Shown one piece after another: positions 1-35,203 of a stretch of DNA of 45,324 bases (positions within the stretch are counted from its first letter, which is position 1; each line of letters opens with the position of its first letter). The translations under genes and the position numbers were made by a program. The DNA comes from a bacterium endosymbiont of Pedicinus badii. GTDB taxonomy: Bacteria > Pseudomonadota > Gammaproteobacteria > Enterobacterales > Enterobacteriaceae. The stretch lies in assembly GCF_002075085.1 (NCBI RefSeq), contig NZ_LKAS01000002.1, positions 125,168-170,491 of the forward strand. The letters are read 5' to 3'. The notes below the pieces were generated by a model that saw only the letters and a program-made list of their open reading frames with translations, was not told the DNA's origin and made no database searches.

Positions 1-450
1 ATCTTATTACTTTGTTCTGCTTTTATAGGAGGATGCTCAGGATCTACAGCTGGAGGAATTAAAGTAATTAGAATACTACTATTTTATTTACAAGGTATTC
101 GAGAATTAAAAAAACTTATTCATCCAAATGCAGTCTATATTATAAAAGTAGGTAATAAGTATTTTTCTTCTGCGTTTTTGGAAACAGTTTGGGGATACTT
201 TTCCGCTTATATTTTTGTTTTTATATCTAGTATGTTAGCAATAATTTCTACTGGGATAGAAAATTTTTCTGCTTTTACTGCAGTAACAGCAACTTTAAAT
301 AATTTAGGTCCTGGATTAGGAATATTTTCAGAAAATTTTTCATCTATTAATAATACTGCGAAATGGATCTTAGTATTAAATATGCTTTTTGGAAGACTAG
401 AAATTTTTACTTTACTGGTAATATTTACTCCTACTTTTTGGAAAGAATAA
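1..450 (+). CDS. trkH: TrkH potassium uptake protein, C-terminal part (cut by window edge)
   Basis: Membrane subunit of the Trk potassium uptake system, which works with the cytoplasmic regulator TrkA encoded at 29673-31037. The frame is open from base 1 to the TAA at 448-450, giving the last 149 residues. The segment reading IGGCSGSTAGGIKVIRILL and the pore-loop segment TLNNLGPGLG near the end match the C-terminal half of E. coli TrkH almost residue for residue, and the protein ends in FTPTFWKE like the E. coli protein. Hydrophobic membrane stretches are evident. In E. coli trkH is followed by hemG and the rrnA operon; here hemG is absent and the tRNAs follow after about 96 bases. The start lies outside the window. 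Confidence 0.95.
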   Translation: MLLLCSAFIGGCSGSTAGGIKVIRILLFYLQGIRELKKLIHPNAVYIIKVGNKYFSSAFLETVWGYFSAYIFVFISSMLAIISTGIENFSAFTAVTATLNNLGPGLGIFSENFSSINNTAKWILVLNMLFGRLEIFTLLVIFTPTFWKE

Positions 451-546
451 AATACATAAATTTTGTAAAATAATTTATATATTTTATATTTTGAATGTAT
501 AATATAATAAAATTAGATTTAGTAAAAAATAAAAATAAAAATTTCT

Positions 547-620
547 AGGCTTGTAGCTCAGTTGGTTAGAGCACACCCCTGATAAGGGTGAGGTCGGTGG
601 TTCAAGTCCACTCAGGCCTA
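547..620 (+). tRNA. ileT: tRNA-Ile (GAT anticodon)
   Basis: A 74-base cloverleaf with a 7-bp acceptor stem closed by one G-U pair, anticodon GAT, the T-loop block GGTTCAAGTCC and discriminator A. It is nearly identical to the tRNA-Ile of the 16S-23S spacer of E. coli rrnA. The 3' CCA is not encoded (TTT follows). A TATAAT at 498-503 is a possible -10 element, with no clear -35. The flanking 16S and 23S genes are missing. Confidence 0.97.
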
Positions 621-627
621 TTTTAAG

Positions 628-700
628 GGGGCTATAGCTCAATTGGAAGAGCATCTGCTTTGCACGCAGAAGGTTAGCGGTTCAATCCCGCTTAGCTCCA
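628..700 (+). tRNA. alaT: tRNA-Ala (TGC anticodon)
   Basis: A 73-base cloverleaf with acceptor strands GGGGCTA and TAGCTCC (one G-U pair), anticodon TGC and discriminator A. It is the usual rRNA-spacer partner of tRNA-Ile(GAT), seven bases downstream of it. No CCA is encoded; three A follow. No 23S rRNA follows: the next gene is tRNA-Asp after six bases. Confidence 0.97.
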
Positions 701-706
701 AAATTT

Positions 707-780
707 GGTGCGGTAGTTCAGATGGTAAGAATACTGGCCTGTCACGTCAGGGGTCGCGGGTTCGAATCCCGTCCGCACCG
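707..780 (+). tRNA. aspT: tRNA-Asp (GTC anticodon)
   Basis: A 74-base cloverleaf with perfectly paired acceptor strands GGTGCGG and CCGCACC, anticodon GTC and discriminator G. It matches E. coli tRNA-Asp, which sits distal to the rrnC operon just before tRNA-Trp. No CCA is encoded. Confidence 0.97.
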
Positions 781-785
781 ATTTT

Positions 786-858
786 AGGGATGTAACTCAA
801 TTGGTAGAGTATCGGTCTCCAAAACCGAAAGTTGAGAGTTCGAATCTCTCCGTCCCTG
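786..858 (+). tRNA. trpT: tRNA-Trp (CCA anticodon)
   Basis: A 73-base cloverleaf with anticodon CCA in the loop CTCCAAAA, discriminator G, and acceptor strands AGGGATG and CGTCCCT. As in E. coli, aspT-trpT is followed by maoP, so this is the downstream flank of rrnC. The 3' CCA is not encoded (TGT follows). Confidence 0.97.
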
Positions 859-895
859 TGTATTTATTTATGCAAATTTTATAAAATTTAAAATA

Positions 896-923
896 TTGAT
901 TTTTAAAAATTTTTATTTATAAT
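896..923 (+). promoter_or_regulatory. Candidate sigma-70 promoter for maoP-trxA
   Basis: TTGATT at 896-901 and a perfect TATAAT at 918-923 are 16 bases apart. Transcription would start near 930, just after an in-frame ATG at 928, which argues that maoP starts at the ATG at 964. In such AT-rich DNA chance matches are common. Confidence 0.5.
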
Positions 924-963
924 AACTATGCTTATTATAAATTTTATTTTTGAATTTCAATTT

Positions 964-1329
964 ATGAAAATTATAAGAAAGCGAGAAAAAGTACAAAACA
1001 GTTTTATAACTAAAAAACTTTATTTTGATAAAAAAAACTATCCATATGGATTTTCTAGACACGGAAATTTTACAATCAAGGAAGCAAAACTTTTAGAAAA
1101 TTTTGGTCATGCTTATAAAGAATTAAGTCAAGGAATAAGAATACCAAAAACAGAAATAGAGAAACAATTTATTAGAATGTGTAACGGAAAAAAAAAACCT
1201 TCGAATAAGCATGAAAAAGTATGGCATAAATACGTTGAGTTTGTAAATAAGCCAAAAAAATTTCATACTTTATCTGGAGGAAAACCTGAAATACACTGCT
1301 TAGAAGAATATTCTGAAAACGAAGAATAA
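964..1329 (+). CDS. maoP: MaoP (YifE), Ori macrodomain organising protein, DUF413 family
   Basis: In E. coli MaoP (formerly YifE, 112 residues) acts with the maoS site to organise the Ori region of the chromosome. The copy here is about 121 residues. It carries the family blocks YFDKKNYPYGFSRHGNFTIKEAKLLE and near the C-terminus KPKKFHTLSGGKPE, followed by an acidic tail. An ATG at 928 would add 12 hydrophobic residues unlike the family and would precede the predicted transcription start, so I chose 964. trxA follows after 14 bases. The hdfR gene that is its divergent neighbour in E. coli is absent. Identity is firm; whether it still organises DNA in a small chromosome is unknown. Confidence 0.9.
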   Translation: MKIIRKREKVQNSFITKKLYFDKKNYPYGFSRHGNFTIKEAKLLENFGHAYKELSQGIRIPKTEIEKQFIRMCNGKKKPSNKHEKVWHKYVEFVNKPKKFHTLSGGKPEIHCLEEYSENEE

Positions 1330-1343
1330 AATTATAGGAAAAT

Positions 1344-1676
1344 ATGAAAGAAAATATTATTTTTGAATTAAACGAAAAAAATTTTCAAGAAACTTTAAAA
1401 AAAAATAATTTTGTCATAGTAGATTTTTGGGCAGATTGGTGTTCTCCTTGTAAACAAATGAGTGATATATTTTTAGAAGTTGCAAAAGAACTAGGAAAAA
1501 AAGTAGTTTTTTCTAAGGTTAATATAGATACTTGCTCTTCAATAGCAGAAAAATACAACATAAGAAGTATACCTTCTTTTTTATTTTTTAAGTACAATAA
1601 ACTTATAGATACAAAAATTGGAATGATTTCCGCTGAAAAAATAAAAGAACTTATAAAAAAAAATTTTAATACTTAA
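1344..1676 (+). CDS. trxA: Thioredoxin 1, with variant active site CSPC
   Basis: Small cytoplasmic disulfide reductase, 110 residues (E. coli 109). The redox centre at residues 32-36 reads WCSPC rather than the near-universal WCGPC, so Gly is replaced by Ser between the two cysteines. The cis-proline loop (SIPSFLF) and the NID segment are kept, while the proline shortly after the active-site helix start (Pro40 in E. coli) is lost. A good ribosome site, AGGA, lies seven bases before the ATG. In E. coli trxA also lies just upstream of rho, so the neighbourhood is ancestral. Confidence 0.95.
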   Translation: MKENIIFELNEKNFQETLKKNNFVIVDFWADWCSPCKQMSDIFLEVAKELGKKVVFSKVNIDTCSSIAEKYNIRSIPSFLFFKYNKLIDTKIGMISAEKIKELIKKNFNT

Positions 1677-1702
1677 AATCTTTAATGAAAGTAAGATATA
1701 AA

Positions 1703-1716
1703 AGTCTTATAAGACT
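1703..1716. repeat. 14-base palindrome in the rho leader
   Basis: AGTCTTATAAGACT is a perfect palindrome in the 110-base gap between trxA and rho, where E. coli has the rhoL leader used in Rho autoregulation. It could form a 5-bp stem with a 4-base loop or be a protein site. It has no T-run directly after it, so it is not a convincing terminator. Confidence 0.4.
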
Positions 1717-1786
1717 CTTCTATAAATACATTTCTTTTTCGATTGATTTTATAACTTTTTCAAATCCTTTAAATAGAAAATAAAAT

Positions 1787-3046
1787 ATGAATCTCTCCGA
1801 ATTCAAAAACATATCAGTTTCAGAACTAGTCTCTATTGGAGAAAATATGGAACTAGAAAATTTAGCTCGTATGAGAAAACAAGATATTATATTCGCCATT
1901 CTGAAACAACATGCTAAAAGTGGAGAAGACATTTTCGGAGGAGGTGTTCTGGAAATTTTACAAGATGGATTCGGTTTTTTACGATCTAGTGATAGCTCAT
2001 ACTTGGCTGGACCAGATGACATATACGTATCTCCTAGTCAAATAAGAAGATTTAATTTACGTACAGGTGATACAATATTCGGAAAAATCAGACCTCCTAA
2101 AGAAGGAGAAAGATACTTTGCTTTACTAAAAGTAAATGAAGTTAATTACGACAAACCAGAAATTTCTAGAAATAAAATTTTATTTGAAAATTTAACTCCT
2201 TTGCATGCAAATTCCAGACTACGAATGGAAAGAGGTAATGGTTCCACAGAAGACTTAACTGCTAGAGTACTAGATTTAGCTGCTCCTATAGGAAGAGGTC
2301 AAAGGGGACTGATTGTAGCTCCTCCGAAAGCTGGAAAAACTATGCTTTTACAAAATATATCTCAAAGTATAGCATATAATCATCCAGACTGCATACTAAT
2401 GGTTCTATTAATAGACGAAAGACCTGAAGAAGTAACTGAAATGCAAAGACTAGTAAAAGGAGAAGTAATTGCATCTACCTTTGATGAACCATTTTTAAGA
2501 CATGTACAAGTTTCTGAAATGGTAATAGAAAAGGCGAAAAGATTGGTAGAACATAAAAAAAATGTTGTAATACTACTAGATTCTATAACTAGACTAGCTA
2601 GAGCGTATAATAGTATAGTACCTGCTTCCGGTAAAATATTAACTGGAGGAGTTGATTCTAATGCTTTACATAGACCAAAAAGATTTTTTGGAGCAGCAAG
2701 AAATATGGAAGAAGGAGGAAGCTTGACTATTATTGCTACTGCTTTAATCGACACTGGATCAAAAATGGATGAAGTGATATACGAAGAATTTAAAGGAACT
2801 GGAAATATGGAGCTTCATCTTTCAAGAAAAATTTCAGAAAAAAGAGTATTTCCTGCTATAGACTATAATAGATCAGGTACAAGAAAAGAAGAACTTCTTA
2901 CAACAAAAGAAGAATTACAAAAAATGTGGATTTTAAGAAAAATTATGCATCCTATGAATGAAATCGATGCTATAGAATTTTTAATTAATAAATTATCTAT
3001 GACCAAAACAAATAAAGAATTTTTCGTTATGATGAAAAGATCATAA
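1787..3046 (+). CDS. rho: Transcription termination factor Rho
   Basis: Hexameric RNA-dependent ATPase/helicase that terminates transcription. At 419 residues it has exactly the E. coli length and is among the most conserved proteins in the window. The N-terminal RNA-binding domain keeps the GFGFLR motif and [10 protein letters not shown] block; the ATPase domain keeps the Walker A motif APPKAGKT (Lys near 184), the Walker B block [16 protein letters not shown] and the Q/R-loop region. It follows trxA as in E. coli. Retention of a near-intact Rho fits a genome where few intrinsic terminators are visible. Confidence 0.98.
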
Positions 3047-3068
3047 AATAAAAATATAAAAAATATAT

Positions 3069-3142
3069 GGTGATTGTAGCTCAGTTGGTAGAGCTCTGGA
3101 TTGTGGTTCCGGATGTCGTGGGTTCGAATCCCATCAATCACC
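3069..3142 (+). tRNA. hisR: tRNA-His (GTG anticodon)
   Basis: A 74-base cloverleaf with the 8-bp acceptor stem typical of tRNA-His: GGTGATTG pairs with CAATCACC, including the extra G(-1):C73 pair. Anticodon GTG, T-loop GGGTTCGAATCCC. The bases after the acceptor are CAT, so CCA is not encoded. In E. coli hisR lies in argX-hisR-leuT-proM; argX and leuT have been lost here. Confidence 0.97.
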
Positions 3143-3149
3143 CATCATT

Positions 3150-3223
3150 CGGCGAGTAGCGCAGTTTGGTAGCGCAACTGGTTTGGGACCAGTGGGTCAG
3201 AGGTTCAAATCCTCTCTCGCCGA
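3150..3223 (+). tRNA. proM: tRNA-Pro (TGG anticodon)
   Basis: A 74-base cloverleaf with perfectly paired acceptor strands CGGCGAG and CTCGCCG, anticodon TGG and discriminator A; no encoded CCA. It is the last member of the E. coli argX-hisR-leuT-proM cluster. dapF starts 17 bases downstream, so the two are probably co-transcribed. Confidence 0.97.
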
Positions 3224-3240
3224 ATTAAAAATAACTATTT

Positions 3241-4035
3241 ATGAAGAAAATTATTTTTTTCACAAAAATGCATTGCAACGGAAACGATTGTATACTTTTG
3301 CAAAGTAAAAATTTTCTAAAAAAAAAACAAATTTCTTTAATTTCAAACAGATATTTCGGGATAGGATTTGATCAACTAATCTATTTTTATAAGTCAAACA
3401 TAAAAGAAGTAGACTATTTTTATACAGTTTTTAATTCAGATGGAAGTTTAGCTAAACAATGCGGAAATGGATTGAGATGTCTTTCTAAATATCTACAAAA
3501 AAAAGTTCCAAAAAAAAAAATTTATCTTAGTAATAAAAAAAGAATTTTTTGTGCAACTTTTTTAAAAAAAAATCTTGTAAAAATCAACATGGGAAAACCA
3601 AAATTTTTATACCAAAAAAAAATTATATTAGAAAAAAACGAAAAGCTCATTTGTTACATTGTCTCTGTTGAAAACATGCATAGTATAATTTTTTTTAAAA
3701 ATATTTTTTATAAAAAACTTTTTAAATTTAATTATTATTTAAGAAAAAAATACGATTTTTTAAAAAAATTAAATATCAGTTTTGTTAAAGTAGTAAATAA
3801 AACATCATTAATAATTAGAACTTTTGAATTTGGTTCAGGACAAACTTTATCTTGTGGAAGTGCTTCTTGTGCAGCAGTTTGTATTTCTTCTATAAAAAAA
3901 AAATTGCTTTTTAATAAAAACATTAATGTAAAATCTAAAGGAGGTGCACTAAAAGTTTTTTGGAAAAAACAAGATAGCGAAATATATACAACCGGAATAG
4001 CTCACCAAATATACGAAGGAAAAATAACTTTATAA
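3241..4035 (+). CDS. dapF: Diaminopimelate epimerase
   Basis: Converts LL- to meso-diaminopimelate, for peptidoglycan and the last steps of lysine synthesis. 264 residues (E. coli 274). The two catalytic cysteines are visible: Cys74 in QCGNGLRC and Cys205 in SCGSASCAA. The GFDQL motif and the NSDGS motif are kept. Oddities: the substrate-binding pair usually read as ERG reads EFG at 196-198, so the conserved Arg is Phe; the usual GNPH segment reads ENMH at 144-147; the GAGET motif reads GSGQT. It may be under relaxed constraint. It ends two bases from the convergent yigB. Confidence 0.95.
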   Translation: MKKIIFFTKMHCNGNDCILLQSKNFLKKKQISLISNRYFGIGFDQLIYFYKSNIKEVDYFYTVFNSDGSLAKQCGNGLRCLSKYLQKKVPKKKIYLSNKKRIFCATFLKKNLVKINMGKPKFLYQKKIILEKNEKLICYIVSVENMHSIIFFKNIFYKKLFKFNYYLRKKYDFLKKLNISFVKVVNKTSLIIRTFEFGSGQTLSCGSASCAAVCISSIKKKLLFNKNINVKSKGGALKVFWKKQDSEIYTTGIAHQIYEGKITL

Positions 4036-4037
4036 CA

Positions 4038-4766
4038 CTATTTTTCTTCCAAAATATCCAAAAGAGAATGTAAATTTGATATTTCTAAATGAGGAAGGAT
4101 TCTTTCTCTTTTTAAATTTTTAAAATTTTTTGCTTTATTTTTATTAATCCAGCATGCTTGCATTCCAGAATCTATTGCACCTTTAATATCTGTAATAATG
4201 TCATCTCCTACATGAAGAATACTATTAATAGGTAAGCACAATTTTAAAGAAGCCAGCTTATACATATCTTTATAAGGTTTAGATCTTCCGTCTATTCCAG
4301 CTCTTAGTATACAAAAAAAGTATTTTCCAATTCCAAAGAGATAGGGATTAGCATTTCCATTAGTAATAATAATTAAAGGAAAGCTATTTTTTAATTTTTT
4401 TAGTATTTCGTGTGTTTGTTTAGGTATGTGTATTCTACTTCTCCAATATTGGACAATTTTCATAGCAATATTTGCTCCATTTTTAGCTTGTTTTTCTGAT
4501 ATGCCAACGTTTTTCATTACTAAATATATAGAAAACCATCTCCAATAGTTAACATCATGAAAATAATGAGGATACTTATTTCTTAAAAATTCCCTGAGTT
4601 TTTGATATTCTTTTTTTTTTATTTTTTTCAACTTAGGATGATAGTCTTTAAGAAACTTCATAGATTCATAGTCTGCTTTTTTTACTATAGGTTTATCGTC
4701 GTATAATGTATTATCAAGATCAAAAGTTATAGCTCTCACATTGATAAGATTTTTATAAATTCGCAT
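4038..4766 (-). CDS. yigB: YigB, HAD-family 5-amino-6-(5-phosphoribitylamino)uracil phosphatase
   Basis: HAD-superfamily hydrolase; the E. coli protein is one of the phosphatases that dephosphorylate the riboflavin precursor. About 242 residues from the ATG at 4766 (E. coli 238). HAD motif I is AITFDLDNTLYDDKP, motif II ITNGNA, motif III in GRSKP, motif IV HVGDDIITDIKGA, and the GMQACWIN segment matches YigB closely. A longer reading from an ATG at 4829 adds 21 hydrophobic residues unlike the family; the start at 4766 aligns with the E. coli start (MRIY against MRFY). In E. coli it is separated from dapF by yigA and xerC, both lost here. Confidence 0.9.
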   Translation of the reverse strand: MRIYKNLINVRAITFDLDNTLYDDKPIVKKADYESMKFLKDYHPKLKKIKKKEYQKLREFLRNKYPHYFHDVNYWRWFSIYLVMKNVGISEKQAKNGANIAMKIVQYWRSRIHIPKQTHEILKKLKNSFPLIIITNGNANPYLFGIGKYFFCILRAGIDGRSKPYKDMYKLASLKLCLPINSILHVGDDIITDIKGAIDSGMQACWINKNKAKNFKNLKRERILPHLEISNLHSLLDILEEK

Positions 4767-4909
4767 TTTTTTCCTTTTTAAAAATAAAAATTCAAAAATT
4801 ATTTCTAGTTTTTCTAATAAAAATATCAATATATAATAAAATAAATTTTATATACAGAACAATTTCAGAAAGAAATTTAAAATTTTTAATATTTTTAAAG
4901 GATTTTGAT

Positions 4910-5710
4910 ATGTTTCGAATTGTTGTATCCGATCTTGATGGCACTCTGTTATCTAAAAATCATAGGATAGAAATTTTTACAAAAAAAATCTTACAAAGAG
5001 TAATAAAAAAAGGAATACATTTTATATTTGCAACAGGAAGACATCACATTGATGTAAAAAAAATTCAAAATGATTTAAAAATAAAAACTTATATGATTAC
5101 TTCTAATGGAGCTAGAATACATGATAATTTTGGAAATCTAATTTTTTCTCACGATTTTGAAGAAAGTATAGTAAGAGAATTAGCAAGTATGTTTTATAAA
5201 GACAAAAAAATATCTACAAATATATTTAGAGATAAAGAATGGTTTATCAGTAAAGAAGAAATAAATAGAAAAGACTTTTTTTTTGAATCTTCATTCAACT
5301 ACAAAATTTATAAAAATGGAAAACTTCCAAACTATTTGGGAGTATGTAAAATATACTTTACGTGTCATGATCCTAAATATCTTTTAAAAATAGAAAGATT
5401 TTTAAAAATCAATTTGGAGGATAAAATTAATGTAAGTTTCTCTCTTCCAATATGTTTAGAAATTATGCCAAAAGGAGTGTGCAAAGGAAAATCTTTAAAA
5501 AAAGTTATTAAAATATTGGGATATCAAATGAAAGATTGTATATCTTTTGGAGATGGAATGAACGATATAGAAATGCTCTCTAGTACAGGAAAAGGATGTA
5601 TTATGAAAAATGGACATAAGAGATTAAAAGAAAAACTACCTCATTTAGAAATAATTGGAACAAATGAAGAACAAGCAGTCGCAAAATACTTAAAAAAAAT
5701 ATTTTTGTAA
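4910..5710 (+). CDS. yigL: YigL, Cof-type HAD sugar/pyridoxal phosphate phosphatase
   Basis: 266 residues, the same length as E. coli YigL, a Cof-like HAD phosphatase active on sugar phosphates and pyridoxal 5'-phosphate. Motif I is VVSDLDGTLLSKNH at the N-terminus, motif II lies in ITSNGARIHD, and motifs III/IV are KGKSLKKV and SFGDGMNDIEML. A cap domain occupies the middle. An AAGG ribosome site precedes the ATG. The assignment to yigL rather than another Cof paralogue rests on length and on its position in the yigB-side block, so family is certain and paralogue likely. Confidence 0.83.
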   Translation: MFRIVVSDLDGTLLSKNHRIEIFTKKILQRVIKKGIHFIFATGRHHIDVKKIQNDLKIKTYMITSNGARIHDNFGNLIFSHDFEESIVRELASMFYKDKKISTNIFRDKEWFISKEEINRKDFFFESSFNYKIYKNGKLPNYLGVCKIYFTCHDPKYLLKIERFLKINLEDKINVSFSLPICLEIMPKGVCKGKSLKKVIKILGYQMKDCISFGDGMNDIEMLSSTGKGCIMKNGHKRLKEKLPHLEIIGTNEEQAVAKYLKKIFL

Positions 5711-5713
5711 ATG

Positions 5714-5752
5714 CTAAAATATTTTCTGGTACTTTTGTACCAGAAATTTTAG
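5714..5752. terminator. Bidirectional intrinsic terminator between yigL and yhgN
   Basis: CTGGTAC at 5726-5732, a TTTT loop, and GTACCAG at 5737-5743 form a perfect stem that extends outward through A-T pairs; the outer arms CTAAAAT (5714) and ATTTTAG (to 5752) are also complementary. U-rich stretches follow on both strands, as expected between convergent genes. The structure overlaps the yhgN stop codon (5749-5751). It is the clearest intrinsic terminator in the window. Confidence 0.75.
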
Positions 5753-6345
5753 TAATTATTCATATATACTTTTGCACCTTCTAGTATCATTTGCATAGAA
5801 ATCATAACAAATAACAATCCCATAATTTTTTCTAGTGCGGAAAATCCTTTTTTTCCTAAAATACGAAATAAAGTACCAGACATCATAAGCACTATAAGTG
5901 ATAAAACCCAAGAGATTAATAAAGAAATGCACAAATCTAGTATTTGTTTTGGATATTTTTGTGATAATGAAATTAAAGTTGCTAGAATAGAAGGTCCTGC
6001 AATTAGAGGTATTGCTAAAGGCACTAAAAATGGTTCTTCTCCTTTTTTTAAACCAATTGCATTTCCATTTTTTGAAGGAAATATCATTTTCATAGCTATA
6101 ATAAATAAGACTATTCCTCCTGATATAGAAATAGTTTCTGATTTTAGATTCAAAATCTCAAGAATTTTTTTACTGGCGAATAGAAAAAAAAACATAGCTA
6201 ATAAAGCTAAAATCATTTCTCTAAAAATAATAAAATTTCTTTTTTTTTGTTCCATATCTTTTAGTATAGACATAAAAATTGGCAAATTTCCAATTGGATC
6301 TATAATAAGAAACATTAGTATAGTAAAAGACATTATATTATTCAT
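5749..6345 (-). CDS. yhgN: YhgN, MarC-family inner-membrane protein
   Basis: 198 residues (E. coli YhgN 197), with about six strongly hydrophobic segments. The family signatures are present: LIIDPIGNLPIF near the N-terminus and PLAIPLIAGPSILATLISL in the middle. It lies divergent to asd, the same pair as in E. coli and in Buchnera. The function of the MarC family is poorly known; an archaeal member (SnatA) transports small neutral amino acids, so an amino-acid transport role here is only an inference. Confidence 0.9.
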   Translation of the reverse strand: MNNIMSFTILMFLIIDPIGNLPIFMSILKDMEQKKRNFIIFREMILALLAMFFFLFASKKILEILNLKSETISISGGIVLFIIAMKMIFPSKNGNAIGLKKGEEPFLVPLAIPLIAGPSILATLISLSQKYPKQILDLCISLLISWVLSLIVLMMSGTLFRILGKKGFSALEKIMGLLFVMISMQMILEGAKVYMNNY

Positions 6346-6414
6346 TTTTTTATTCCCTTTAAAATCATTTTTGTATAGATTATTAGATTAAATAAAAAAT
6401 AAATAGGAGATTTT

Positions 6415-7518
6415 ATGAAAAAAGTAGGTTTTGTAGGTTGGAGAGGTATGGTTGGTTCAATTTTACTAGAAAGAATTATTGAAAAAAATTTTTTTAGTTT
6501 CGTAAACATAGTTTTTTTGTCCACTTCTAAATTTAGTAATTCATTTTTAAAAAAAAAAGTAAAAAACCGAGTTTTACAAAACGCTTTTGATTTAAAAATT
6601 TTATATAATTTAGACATTATTATTAACTGTCAAGGAGAACATTATACTAAAAAAATTTATTATACCCTTAGAAAGATAGGATGGAAAGGATATTGGTTAG
6701 ATTCTTCAAAAACTTTAAGAATGCAAGAAGATACAATGATAGCTTTAGATCCAATCAATTCAAAAGAATTAGAAAATTCTATATCAAAAGGAATAAAAAA
6801 TTTTGCAGTTGGAAACTGCACTGTAAATTTAATGCTAATGTCTCTTGGAGGACTTTTTCAAAAAAATCTTGTAGAAAAAATTTTTGTTTCTACCTATCAG
6901 TCTATTTCTGGAGGAGGATCAAAATTTTTAAAAACTTGGTTTCTTCAAATGAAGAGATTTTACGAAGTTTCCTCAAAGTTTTTTGAGAAAAAATATATTT
7001 CTATTTCTCAAATAAATAAAGCAATTTCACATGAAATGCAAAAAAATAAAAAAACTTTTAAAAAAGTTGTATCCTGGAATGTAATTCCTTGGATCGGTAA
7101 AACAAAATTTGAATTTCTTCCTGAAGAAGAGTGGAAAGGTGAAGTAGAAACTAAAAAAATACTAAATCAAAATGTATCTGTTTATAGCACTTGTGTCAGA
7201 ATTAACGCTTTATGTTGCCATAGTCAATCATTTATAATCAAACTTAAAAAAGATATTTCTTTAAATGAGATTGAAAATATTTTAAAAAATCATAGTAAAT
7301 GGATTAGAATTGTACCAAATAAAAAAAAATATACAGAAAAGTTTTTAAATCCATTTTATGTTTCTGGAAGCACAAAAATATTTGTAGGAAGAATTGCAAA
7401 ATCTAAAAATTTAGGTAAGAATTATGTTTCTGTTTTTTCTGTAGCAGATCAATTAATATGGGGTTCTTCTGAACCTATTCTAAGGGTCTTAAAAAGATTA
7501 ATTTTTGGAGTTTTTTAA
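6415..7518 (+). CDS. asd: Aspartate-semialdehyde dehydrogenase
   Basis: NADPH-dependent reduction of aspartyl phosphate, the second step shared by lysine, threonine, methionine and diaminopimelate synthesis. 367 residues, exactly the E. coli length. The N-terminal Rossmann segment VGFVGWRGMVGSILLERI, the nucleophile Cys135 in GNCTVNL and the SGGGSK segment are all visible. A GGAG ribosome site precedes the ATG. It ends by a 4-base overlap with the convergent nfuA. It fits with lysC and dapF in the same window. Confidence 0.97.
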   Translation: MKKVGFVGWRGMVGSILLERIIEKNFFSFVNIVFLSTSKFSNSFLKKKVKNRVLQNAFDLKILYNLDIIINCQGEHYTKKIYYTLRKIGWKGYWLDSSKTLRMQEDTMIALDPINSKELENSISKGIKNFAVGNCTVNLMLMSLGGLFQKNLVEKIFVSTYQSISGGGSKFLKTWFLQMKRFYEVSSKFFEKKYISISQINKAISHEMQKNKKTFKKVVSWNVIPWIGKTKFEFLPEEEWKGEVETKKILNQNVSVYSTCVRINALCCHSQSFIIKLKKDISLNEIENILKNHSKWIRIVPNKKKYTEKFLNPFYVSGSTKIFVGRIAKSKNLGKNYVSVFSVADQLIWGSSEPILRVLKRLIFGVF

Positions 7519-8102
7519 AAATCAAAGCTTGTAAAATAGTTTTTTCTAGTTTTTTTATGTTTCGTAACATCTATGATACCTTTAATTTCTGGAAATCTTT
7601 TAATAACAGATTTTTCTATGCCTTCTCTTAGTGTAAGATTACTCATAGAGCAACCATTGCAAGATCCATGAAATTGCACTAACAATTTCATATTTTCTGT
7701 AATTTTTACTAATTTTATCTTTCCATTGTGTATACTTAATTTTTTATCTATATATTTTTTAAAAAATTTTTTTATTTCGTTAAAAATTTCTTTTTTGCTA
7801 TACTTATTTTTTGTATTTTTTTTTGGAACTTTTAAGACTAGTTTTGATTCTATTTCAGTATTTATAAAATCAATTTTTGCTTTTTTTAAAAATTTAAAAC
7901 TTTTTTCGTCTATATATACAGAAAATTTTGAAAATTTTATTTCTTTAATGTTGTCTTTTTTATCTTTTTTTTTACAATAAAGTATACTACATTCCGTATA
8001 ATTTGTATTAGGATACAGTACAGAAATTTTTATACATTTATCTTTTTTTCTCTTTAATATATTTGAAAAGTGATTTTGAGCTGATTTGCTAATTGTAATC
8101 AT
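7515..8102 (-). CDS. nfuA: NfuA Fe-S biogenesis/carrier protein
   Basis: 195 residues (E. coli 191). The N-terminal half is a degenerate A-type scaffold-like domain; the C-terminal NifU-like domain keeps the cluster-binding CxxC in GSCNGCSMSNLTLREGIE. It delivers 4Fe-4S clusters to client enzymes. It is divergent from bioH with a 44-base gap; gntX, which separates these genes in E. coli, is lost. Confidence 0.92.
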   Translation of the reverse strand: MITISKSAQNHFSNILKRKKDKCIKISVLYPNTNYTECSILYCKKKDKKDNIKEIKFSKFSVYIDEKSFKFLKKAKIDFINTEIESKLVLKVPKKNTKNKYSKKEIFNEIKKFFKKYIDKKLSIHNGKIKLVKITENMKLLVQFHGSCNGCSMSNLTLREGIEKSVIKRFPEIKGIIDVTKHKKTRKNYFTSFDF

Positions 8103-8146
8103 TCTTATTTAAAAAAATCGTTAAATTACTAAAATTCTATTATTTT

Positions 8147-8899
8147 ATGAAAAGAAATACAAGAAAAAAATTAGTATTTATACACGGTTGGGGAATAAAT
8201 TCTATAATTTGGTCAAAAATTTTAAAGTTTTTTTCAAAAAATTTTTTAATTTATACTATAGATATTCCAGGGTATAAAAAAAATTTTATTGATGCTTCTT
8301 TTGAAGAACTATGTGATTTAATTAAAAAAAAGATTCCTAAAAATGCTATTTTATTAGCATGGTCTTTAGGAGGTTTGTTTGCTATACAATGTATAAATCA
8401 AAAAAAAGATGATTTCCTTGGATGCATACTAGTTTGTTGCTCTCCTTATTTTATTGAAAAAGAGAATTGGTCAGGAGTGTCGGAAAAAATTTTTTTACAA
8501 TTCGAAAATAGAGTAAAAACAAACAGACTACAAAGTATAGAAAAATTTTTATTGCTAAACTTTATTAAAACTAAAAATTGTGTGCACAAATTTAAAAAAA
8601 GTAAAAAAGATTTTTTACAAAAGCAGTATATTCCTTGTAAAAGAACTTTACTGCAAGGATTAGATATTATTAAAAATTGCGATTTAAGAAATTCTTTAAA
8701 AAACATTGATATTCCTTTATTAAGAATTTATGGAAGATTAGATTTTTTAATTTCTGAAAAATGTATTAAAAATATTGATGTTCTTGTAAAAAAAAGTAAA
8801 AAAAAAGTTTTTTTTCTTTCAGGACATGCCCCTTTTATATCAGAAAAAGAACAGTTTGTTTCAGTAATAGAGAAATTTTCTAAAATCTCATTCAAGTAA
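8147..8899 (+). CDS. bioH: BioH, pimeloyl-ACP methyl ester carboxylesterase
   Basis: Alpha/beta hydrolase that ends pimelate synthesis for biotin by removing the methyl ester from pimeloyl-ACP. 250 residues (E. coli 256). The nucleophile Ser73 sits in AWSLGG, the acid in RIYGRLDFL, the catalytic His in SGHAPFISE, and the oxyanion segment FIHGWG at the N-terminus; the pattern matches BioH rather than other esterases. Context (nfuA beside it, the E. coli order) supports the name. The other bio genes are not in the window. It suggests that biotin is made for the partnership. Confidence 0.88.
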   Translation: MKRNTRKKLVFIHGWGINSIIWSKILKFFSKNFLIYTIDIPGYKKNFIDASFEELCDLIKKKIPKNAILLAWSLGGLFAIQCINQKKDDFLGCILVCCSPYFIEKENWSGVSEKIFLQFENRVKTNRLQSIEKFLLLNFIKTKNCVHKFKKSKKDFLQKQYIPCKRTLLQGLDIIKNCDLRNSLKNIDIPLLRIYGRLDFLISEKCIKNIDVLVKKSKKKVFFLSGHAPFISEKEQFVSVIEKFSKISFK

Positions 8900-35170: not shown

Positions 35171-35203
35171 ATTTATAAAAAATTTGTATAGTACAATATA
35201 AAT

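Follow-up and report, generated by a model that had tools for sequence, protein, structure and literature searches.

A cluster of four sole-copy tRNA genes between trkH and maoP in the louse symbiont Puchtella is probably what remains of a ribosomal RNA operon

In the genome of 'Candidatus Puchtella' sp. str. PRUG, identified in excerpts of PMC9376444 and PMC12175528 as the symbiont of the louse Pedicinus badii, the genes trkH, tRNA-Ile, tRNA-Ala, tRNA-Asp, tRNA-Trp and maoP stand in a row (positions 1-1329 of the window, by which we mean the whole stretch of 45,324 b analysed), laid out like a ribosomal RNA (rrn) operon from which the rRNA is missing. The locus raises the question of whether an operon lost its rRNA genes where it stood, whether two operons recombined within the symbiont lineage, as the preliminary description of this DNA had proposed, whether the tRNA genes were brought together by other means, or whether the rRNA disappeared in assembly. 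The row was confirmed with ARAGORN, Rfam and NCBIfam (Table 1). Rfam detected no rRNA at gathering score anywhere in the window, which holds six tRNA genes; the 16S, 23S and 5S genes are gone and the four tRNA genes survive, as had been described.

Table 1 Features of the trkH-maoP block and its surroundings (window positions), and of a second remnant in the same genome.
Feature	Position	Strand	Evidence or remark
trkH, 3' part (C-terminal 149 aa)	1..450	+	NCBIfam PRK10750, E 1.1e-74; 5' flank of the probable lost operon
AT-rich spacer, 95 b	451..545	+	Sequence; presumed place of hemG and 16S
tRNA-Ile(GAT), sole copy	546..621	+	ARAGORN; presumed former 16S-23S spacer tRNA
tRNA-Ala(TGC), sole copy	628..700	+	ARAGORN; presumed former spacer tRNA
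Remaining 5 b	701..705	+	Sequence; presumed place of 23S and 5S
tRNA-Asp(GTC), sole copy	706..781	+	ARAGORN; presumed former distal tRNA
tRNA-Trp(CCA), sole copy	785..859	+	ARAGORN; presumed former distal tRNA
maoP	928..1329	+	NCBIfam PRK11027, E 4.9e-46; 3' flank of the probable lost operon
trxA, rho, tRNA-His, tRNA-Pro, dapF, yigB(-), yigL	1344..5710	+	Order as in G004
yhgN(-), asd(+), nfuA(-), bioH(+)	5749..8899	mixed	Also after yigL in G004
murI, tRNA-Glu, coaA, thrU	L211 (G000:C2:78000-94000), 4069-6146		rRNA absent, spacer tRNA alone kept

All four tRNA genes lie on one strand in the operon order Ile-Ala-(23S-5S)-Asp-Trp, flanked by trkH and maoP, with 6 b between Ile and Ala, 5 b between Ala and Asp and 3 b between Asp and Trp; the preliminary description had given 6 bases between Ala and Asp. 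The trkH fragment is 70% identical to residues 335-483 of E. coli TrkH and is separated from the remainder of the gene by an assembly gap of five N directly left of the window. The NCBIfam matches of trkH and maoP, strong by E value, stay below the curated whole-protein cut-offs. The first 5.7 kb of the window read trkH(C-term)-Ile-Ala-Asp-Trp-maoP-trxA-rho-tRNA-His-tRNA-Pro-dapF-yigB-yigL; hdfR was not found between tRNA-Trp and maoP, the search for hdfR and hemG covering the stretches around the block.

E. coli K-12 carries trkH-hemG on the 5' side of rrnA and hdfR-maoP after rrnC-Asp-Trp, and the interval between rrnC and rrnA runs trxA-rho-...-yigL-...-ubiE-...-trkH. These flanks had been correctly given in the preliminary description, to which hdfR, between trpT and maoP, has to be added. 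It also holds, relative to E. coli, that the end of this interval has been joined to its own beginning: in the window the 5' flank of rrnA meets the 3' flank of rrnC, and the maoP...trkH interval is circularly permuted.

The rRNA of Puchtella is encoded elsewhere. The assembly (G000; 558,122 b) consists of two contigs, both of which match 16S and 23S at both ends, and these four copies, identical over 4,841 b, are read as two operons that the assembly would have written twice each. Operon 1 is flanked by proS and gloB-rnhA-dnaQ, as at the E. coli rrnH site, and operon 2 by bamD-rluD and pssA, as at the rrnG site. Their 16S-23S spacer measures 84 b, and ARAGORN found no tRNA gene in the five contig-end loci scanned. 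Mapping the rRNA of the whole genome, which had been proposed as a check, returned these two other operons, linked and without spacer tRNAs. The contig-end operons (L001-L008) lie in opposite orientation and would make two inverted repeats, which would account for an assembly in two contigs. The genome has 33 tRNA genes, and its single genes for tRNA-Ile(GAT), -Ala(TGC), -Asp and -Trp are the four in the block. As trkH and maoP also give one match each, the genome holds no second copy of either flank, such as the proposed check was to look for and as a standing duplication would leave, unless lost later.

Contigs broken at rRNA repeats, together with the gap of five N in trkH beside the block, could also mean that the assembler collapsed or dropped rRNA at this very site. 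The block itself is, however, contiguous, its 6-b and 5-b spacers retain no rRNA ends, the four contig-end copies of 16S and 23S are consistent with two operons, one at the rrnH and one at the rrnG site, and a similar block occurs independently in another reduced genome (G007, below), all of which makes an artefact extremely improbable.

The comparison that bears most directly on the origin of the joint is that with G004, probably Sodalis praecaptivus, a large-genome relative taken as free-living; we take this to be the name later given to strain HS. The G004 assembly totals 5.2 Mb in two contigs, one of 4,709,528 b, and excerpts of the account of strain HS give a 4.7 Mb chromosome, a megaplasmid of 449.8 kb and seven rRNA operons (PMC3914690). 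G004 (L237) reads ubiD-fre-pepQ-yigZ-trkH-hemG-16S-Glu-23S-5S-Asp-Trp-(ABC-transporter-like genes)-hdfR-maoP-yifB, a complete operon between the outer flanks seen in Puchtella. On a wider scale its order is bioP-metR-metE-...-ubiE-...-trkH-[operon]-maoP-...-trxA-rho-...-His-...-Pro-...-dapF-...-yigL, the same permutation as in the window. Nineteen Puchtella genes (C2:116,002-134,063) map in unbroken order to G004:C1:230,666-413,007, this number being made up of maoP and 18 genes drawn from 26 match rows after antisense ORFs were dropped and gene pieces merged. The two MaoP proteins are 56% identical. Relative strand agrees in 18 of the 19 genes; the exception, yigB (window 4038-4829), lies on the strand opposite to that in E. 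coli and G004, a single-gene inversion in an otherwise collinear stretch. Since yhgN-asd-nfuA-bioH follow yigL in G004 as well, the permuted segment ends alike on its right side in both genomes. No collinear match was found beyond C2:115,801 and C2:134,063 when Puchtella C2:97,000-115,800 and the rest of the window were compared with G004:C1:220,000-427,400, the only G004 region used.

Among the 60 genomes of family f1 in a set of 99, 39 had both trkH and maoP and 30 had them on one contig (the better match being taken where a genome had two trkH matches). In two of these 30, Puchtella and G004, trkH lay at most 20 kb upstream of maoP; in 19 it lay downstream at a distance of 40-135 kb, and in the other nine it had another position. 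Given a complete operon, the same flanks and 19 collinear genes in G004, Puchtella most likely inherited the trkH/maoP joint and lost the rRNA genes by deletion at the site. A relative carrying the row around one complete operon had been named beforehand as the finding that would speak for simple deletion. In kind, G004 is such a relative, with the flanks, a complete operon and the distal Asp-Trp pair, except that its spacer tRNA is Glu, not Ile-Ala.

Sixteen stretches upstream of maoP in relatives were compared for what precedes the Asp-Trp operon: ten have murI there (G009, G011, G014, G016, G017, G020, G025, G027, G041 and G056), three an E. coli-type flank (G001, G023 and G034), one trkH-hemG (G004) and two no rrn (G026 and G069). 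On the 3' side, trkH-hemG-16S leads to mobB-mobA in G034, to murB in G014, whose operon looks collapsed, and in G026, which gave no 23S match there, to metA in G053 and to yhdZ in G056. Flank pairs vary widely across the family, and the E. coli pairing is only one of several. The spacer is variable too: 13 complete Asp-Trp operons beside maoP hold Ile-Ala in nine cases and Glu in four. Because the spacer of this operon varies among genera, an Ile-Ala spacer is no marker of rrnA, and we rejected it as such.

Rearrangements through rrn-rrn recombination were reportedly described by Hill et al. in 1977, 1981 and 1982. Excerpts on Salmonella describe rRNA operons as recombination sites in strains of living serovars, where rrn recombination moves intervals and leaves hybrid operons with the flanks of different rrn loci (PMC2957434). 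Puchtella resembles these strains in its hybrid flanks and displaced interval and differs from them in that no rRNA remains and the flank pair would be an old one. Recombination between rrnA and rrnC within the symbiont lineage, as tandem duplication or as excision and re-insertion, with later loss of the rRNA, is the origin that the preliminary description had favoured. It agrees with the flanks and the permutation relative to E. coli, with the Salmonella precedent and with flank pairs that vary even among close kin. Nevertheless, it would have had to repeat the joint found in G004, the permutation and the right edge at yigL-yhgN-asd, and we regard it as unlikely; the presence of the same joint around a complete operon in G004 speaks against this part of the earlier account.

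Other emptied operons were found in Puchtella and its relatives. Puchtella has a second one, in which murI, a lone tRNA-Glu(TTC), coaA and tRNA-Thr (thrU) correspond to the E. coli rrnB site. Elsewhere, decay appears at various degrees: in G039 (2.4 Mb), trkH-hemG is accompanied by weak relics of 16S and, at operon spacing, by tRNA-Trp, tRNA-Asp being absent, and G007 (0.6 Mb) carries trkH-hemG-Glu-Asp-Trp with no rRNA there. These decaying versions, together with the murI-Glu-coaA-thrU remnant, support deletion in place. Further reduced arrangements are murI-Ala-Asp-Trp followed by ilvE-ilvD-ilvA-ilvC in G169, trkH-hemG-Ile-Ala in G047, trkH-Glu in G170 (an assembly with 8% contamination) and Glu-Asp-Trp in G123, a weak case because no 16S was found anywhere in its assembly. 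A pattern search from the Ala to the Asp anticodon (gap 52-82 b) matched six of 295 family genomes, ARAGORN placing tRNA genes at the match in the window and at none of the other five; this strict pattern passed over genus g6, where the block was found by BLAST. When 53 reduced genomes were searched for the four tRNAs in one match, only G005, besides the window, had them among the matches listed. The sets searched contain no other species of Puchtella's genus.

Transposition or other rearrangement could in principle have gathered four tRNA genes that never belonged to one operon at this site, and tRNA order is indeed not fixed, as seen in G052, where Asp-Trp is followed by Ile-Ala 1.2 kb further on. 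Such gathering would, however, have to have reproduced an operon minus its rRNA, with spacer tRNAs before distal ones, on one strand and between two operon flanks; the similar remnants between rrn flanks in G007 and G169, and the complete operon at the same place in G004, make it very improbable.

Split rRNA operons with 16S directly before Ile-Ala and no 23S were seen in two reduced genera, g6 and that of G101 (L195, L196, L212 and L213). G194 and G282 read proS-16S-Ile-Ala-Asp-Trp-gloB with no 23S between; G005 reads 16S-Ile-Ala-Asp-Trp and then gloB, its contig ending just before that 16S, and has a further 16S after ubiD-fre at the other contig end; G101 reads 16S-Ile-Ala-5S-Asp-Trp-Phe. 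The three g6 genomes were considered as intermediates at the Puchtella locus and rejected as such, as gloB after the block, and proS before it in G194 and G282, mark the rrnH site.

We conclude that the block is very probably what is left, at its original place, of a single ancestral rRNA operon. This operon would have been located between trkH-hemG and hdfR-maoP in an ancestor that resembled Sodalis and was presumably free-living, the flank pair that is hybrid relative to E. coli having presumably been made by rrn-rrn recombination before symbiosis. As the genome shrank, the 16S, 23S and 5S genes, being redundant, would have been deleted at the site together with the adjoining hemG and hdfR, an ancestry and order of events that we infer from the comparisons above. 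The spacer (Ile, Ala) and distal (Asp, Trp) tRNAs could not have been lost once they had become the only copies; erosion would thus have stopped at the tRNAs because the cluster holds the last ones. Several points weigh against this account or weaken it, among them the sequence trees, which do not place Puchtella firmly (below). The Glu spacer of G004 is counter-evidence to it, and an exchange of spacers is therefore also needed. Moreover, G026 and G053, whose S10-region proteins are nearly identical to those of G004, have other 3' flanks after trkH (murB and metA); the joint is therefore not stable between close relatives and could have formed on two occasions.

Outside an rRNA operon, the tight cluster would depend either on a promoter within the preceding 95 b or on transcription running on from trkH, and its product is probably a single precursor of all four tRNAs. 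A candidate sigma-70 promoter, assigned by consensus match only, lies at 474-503 within this spacer. A scan of positions 400-1000 on both strands gave seven promoter-like sites against 2.0 (sd 1.4) in shuffled sequence, an excess that makes them candidates and is no proof of function. The precursor would be cut by RNase P and, as none of the four genes encodes the CCA end, the CCA-adding enzyme would have to finish the tRNAs. Reading by eye suggests that an encoded CCA is likewise missing from most of Puchtella's 33 tRNA genes (L009-L038); by comparison, each of the 14 distinct E. coli tRNAs listed for seven flanking loci has one.

The position of Puchtella in sequence trees was also considered. 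In trees of the S10 region (24 genes, 3,924 columns, 61 taxa), reduced symbionts gather on long branches; Puchtella stands beside G161 and G170 by FastTree, which alone provides local support, and in a recoded IQ-TREE run, and is paired with G051 in an LG run, both IQ-TREE runs being partial and without bootstrap. G161 (a contig of 566,667 b) is a candidate Riesia pediculischaeffi. In the excerpted Bayesian tree of PMC12175528, Riesia groups with Arsenophonus, and Puchtella and Lightella with Wigglesworthia, Blochmannia and Baumannia; because of this position of Riesia, our trees are taken as distorted, and they give Puchtella no firm placement. Tentatively, and with some doubt, the permuted order ubiE-ubiB-ubiD-trkH-[rrn]-Asp-Trp-maoP-trxA-rho-...-yigL-yhgN-asd may be a shared derived character tying Puchtella, and probably G007, to the Sodalis praecaptivus lineage. 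If so, gene order would allow louse symbionts on long branches to be placed free of long-branch attraction, and the sites of eroded operons would act as fossils of ancestral operon flanks. Remnants of this kind would record the ancestral chromosome order because flank pairs vary among genera and stay readable after rRNA loss, and they could help to place symbionts whose sequence trees are unreliable, their main use being perhaps as gene-order markers.

The case is one of ordinary genome shrinkage and a further instance of rRNA loss in place, cleaner in that no rRNA is left; both ends of the path can be seen at a single site, one being the complete rRNA operon of a large-genome relative and the other the bare cluster of four tRNAs. 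The nearest parallel is SOPE, the Sodalis-type weevil symbiont, in which, according to excerpts of PMC3914690, lone 16S genes at sites with complete operons in strain HS were read as deletions and the operon tRNAs were retained. Both symbionts would thus have lost rRNA in place and kept the tRNAs. SOPE, however, has isolated 16S genes left, and its spacer tRNAs are still housed in two complete operons, whereas in Puchtella no rRNA is left at the site and the spacer tRNAs survive there, apart from both complete operons, which have none. Breakdown of the 16S-23S-5S operon is described, in the excerpted text of PMC7761764, as a general trend of reduced genomes, and a split operon is reported in part of PMC4122945 for another symbiont. 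The survey in PMC7761764 concerns, as excerpted, rRNA genes that are no longer linked; the Puchtella remnant is the tRNA part of an operon, and the retained operons are linked. Among the titles and abstracts listed in literature searches none concerned this site, from which we do not claim its absence from print.

Two minor observations concern other rrn sites of this genome. In the window, aroE is followed after 33 b (35171-35203) by murB, which may mark a third rrn site that has been emptied, here of its tRNAs too; in E. coli, aroE lies upstream of rrnD and murB is the 3' flank of rrnB. No genome with an rrn operon between aroE and murB was seen among those looked at, and the two genes also adjoin in G170 (about 70 b apart) and G161 (about 410 b apart). 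Beside the operon at the rrnG site, rluD (G000:C2:299631-300337, L004) matches in two frames, with a frame switch near 299,972 close to an A run, for which slippage, a pseudogene or a sequencing error are possible readings.
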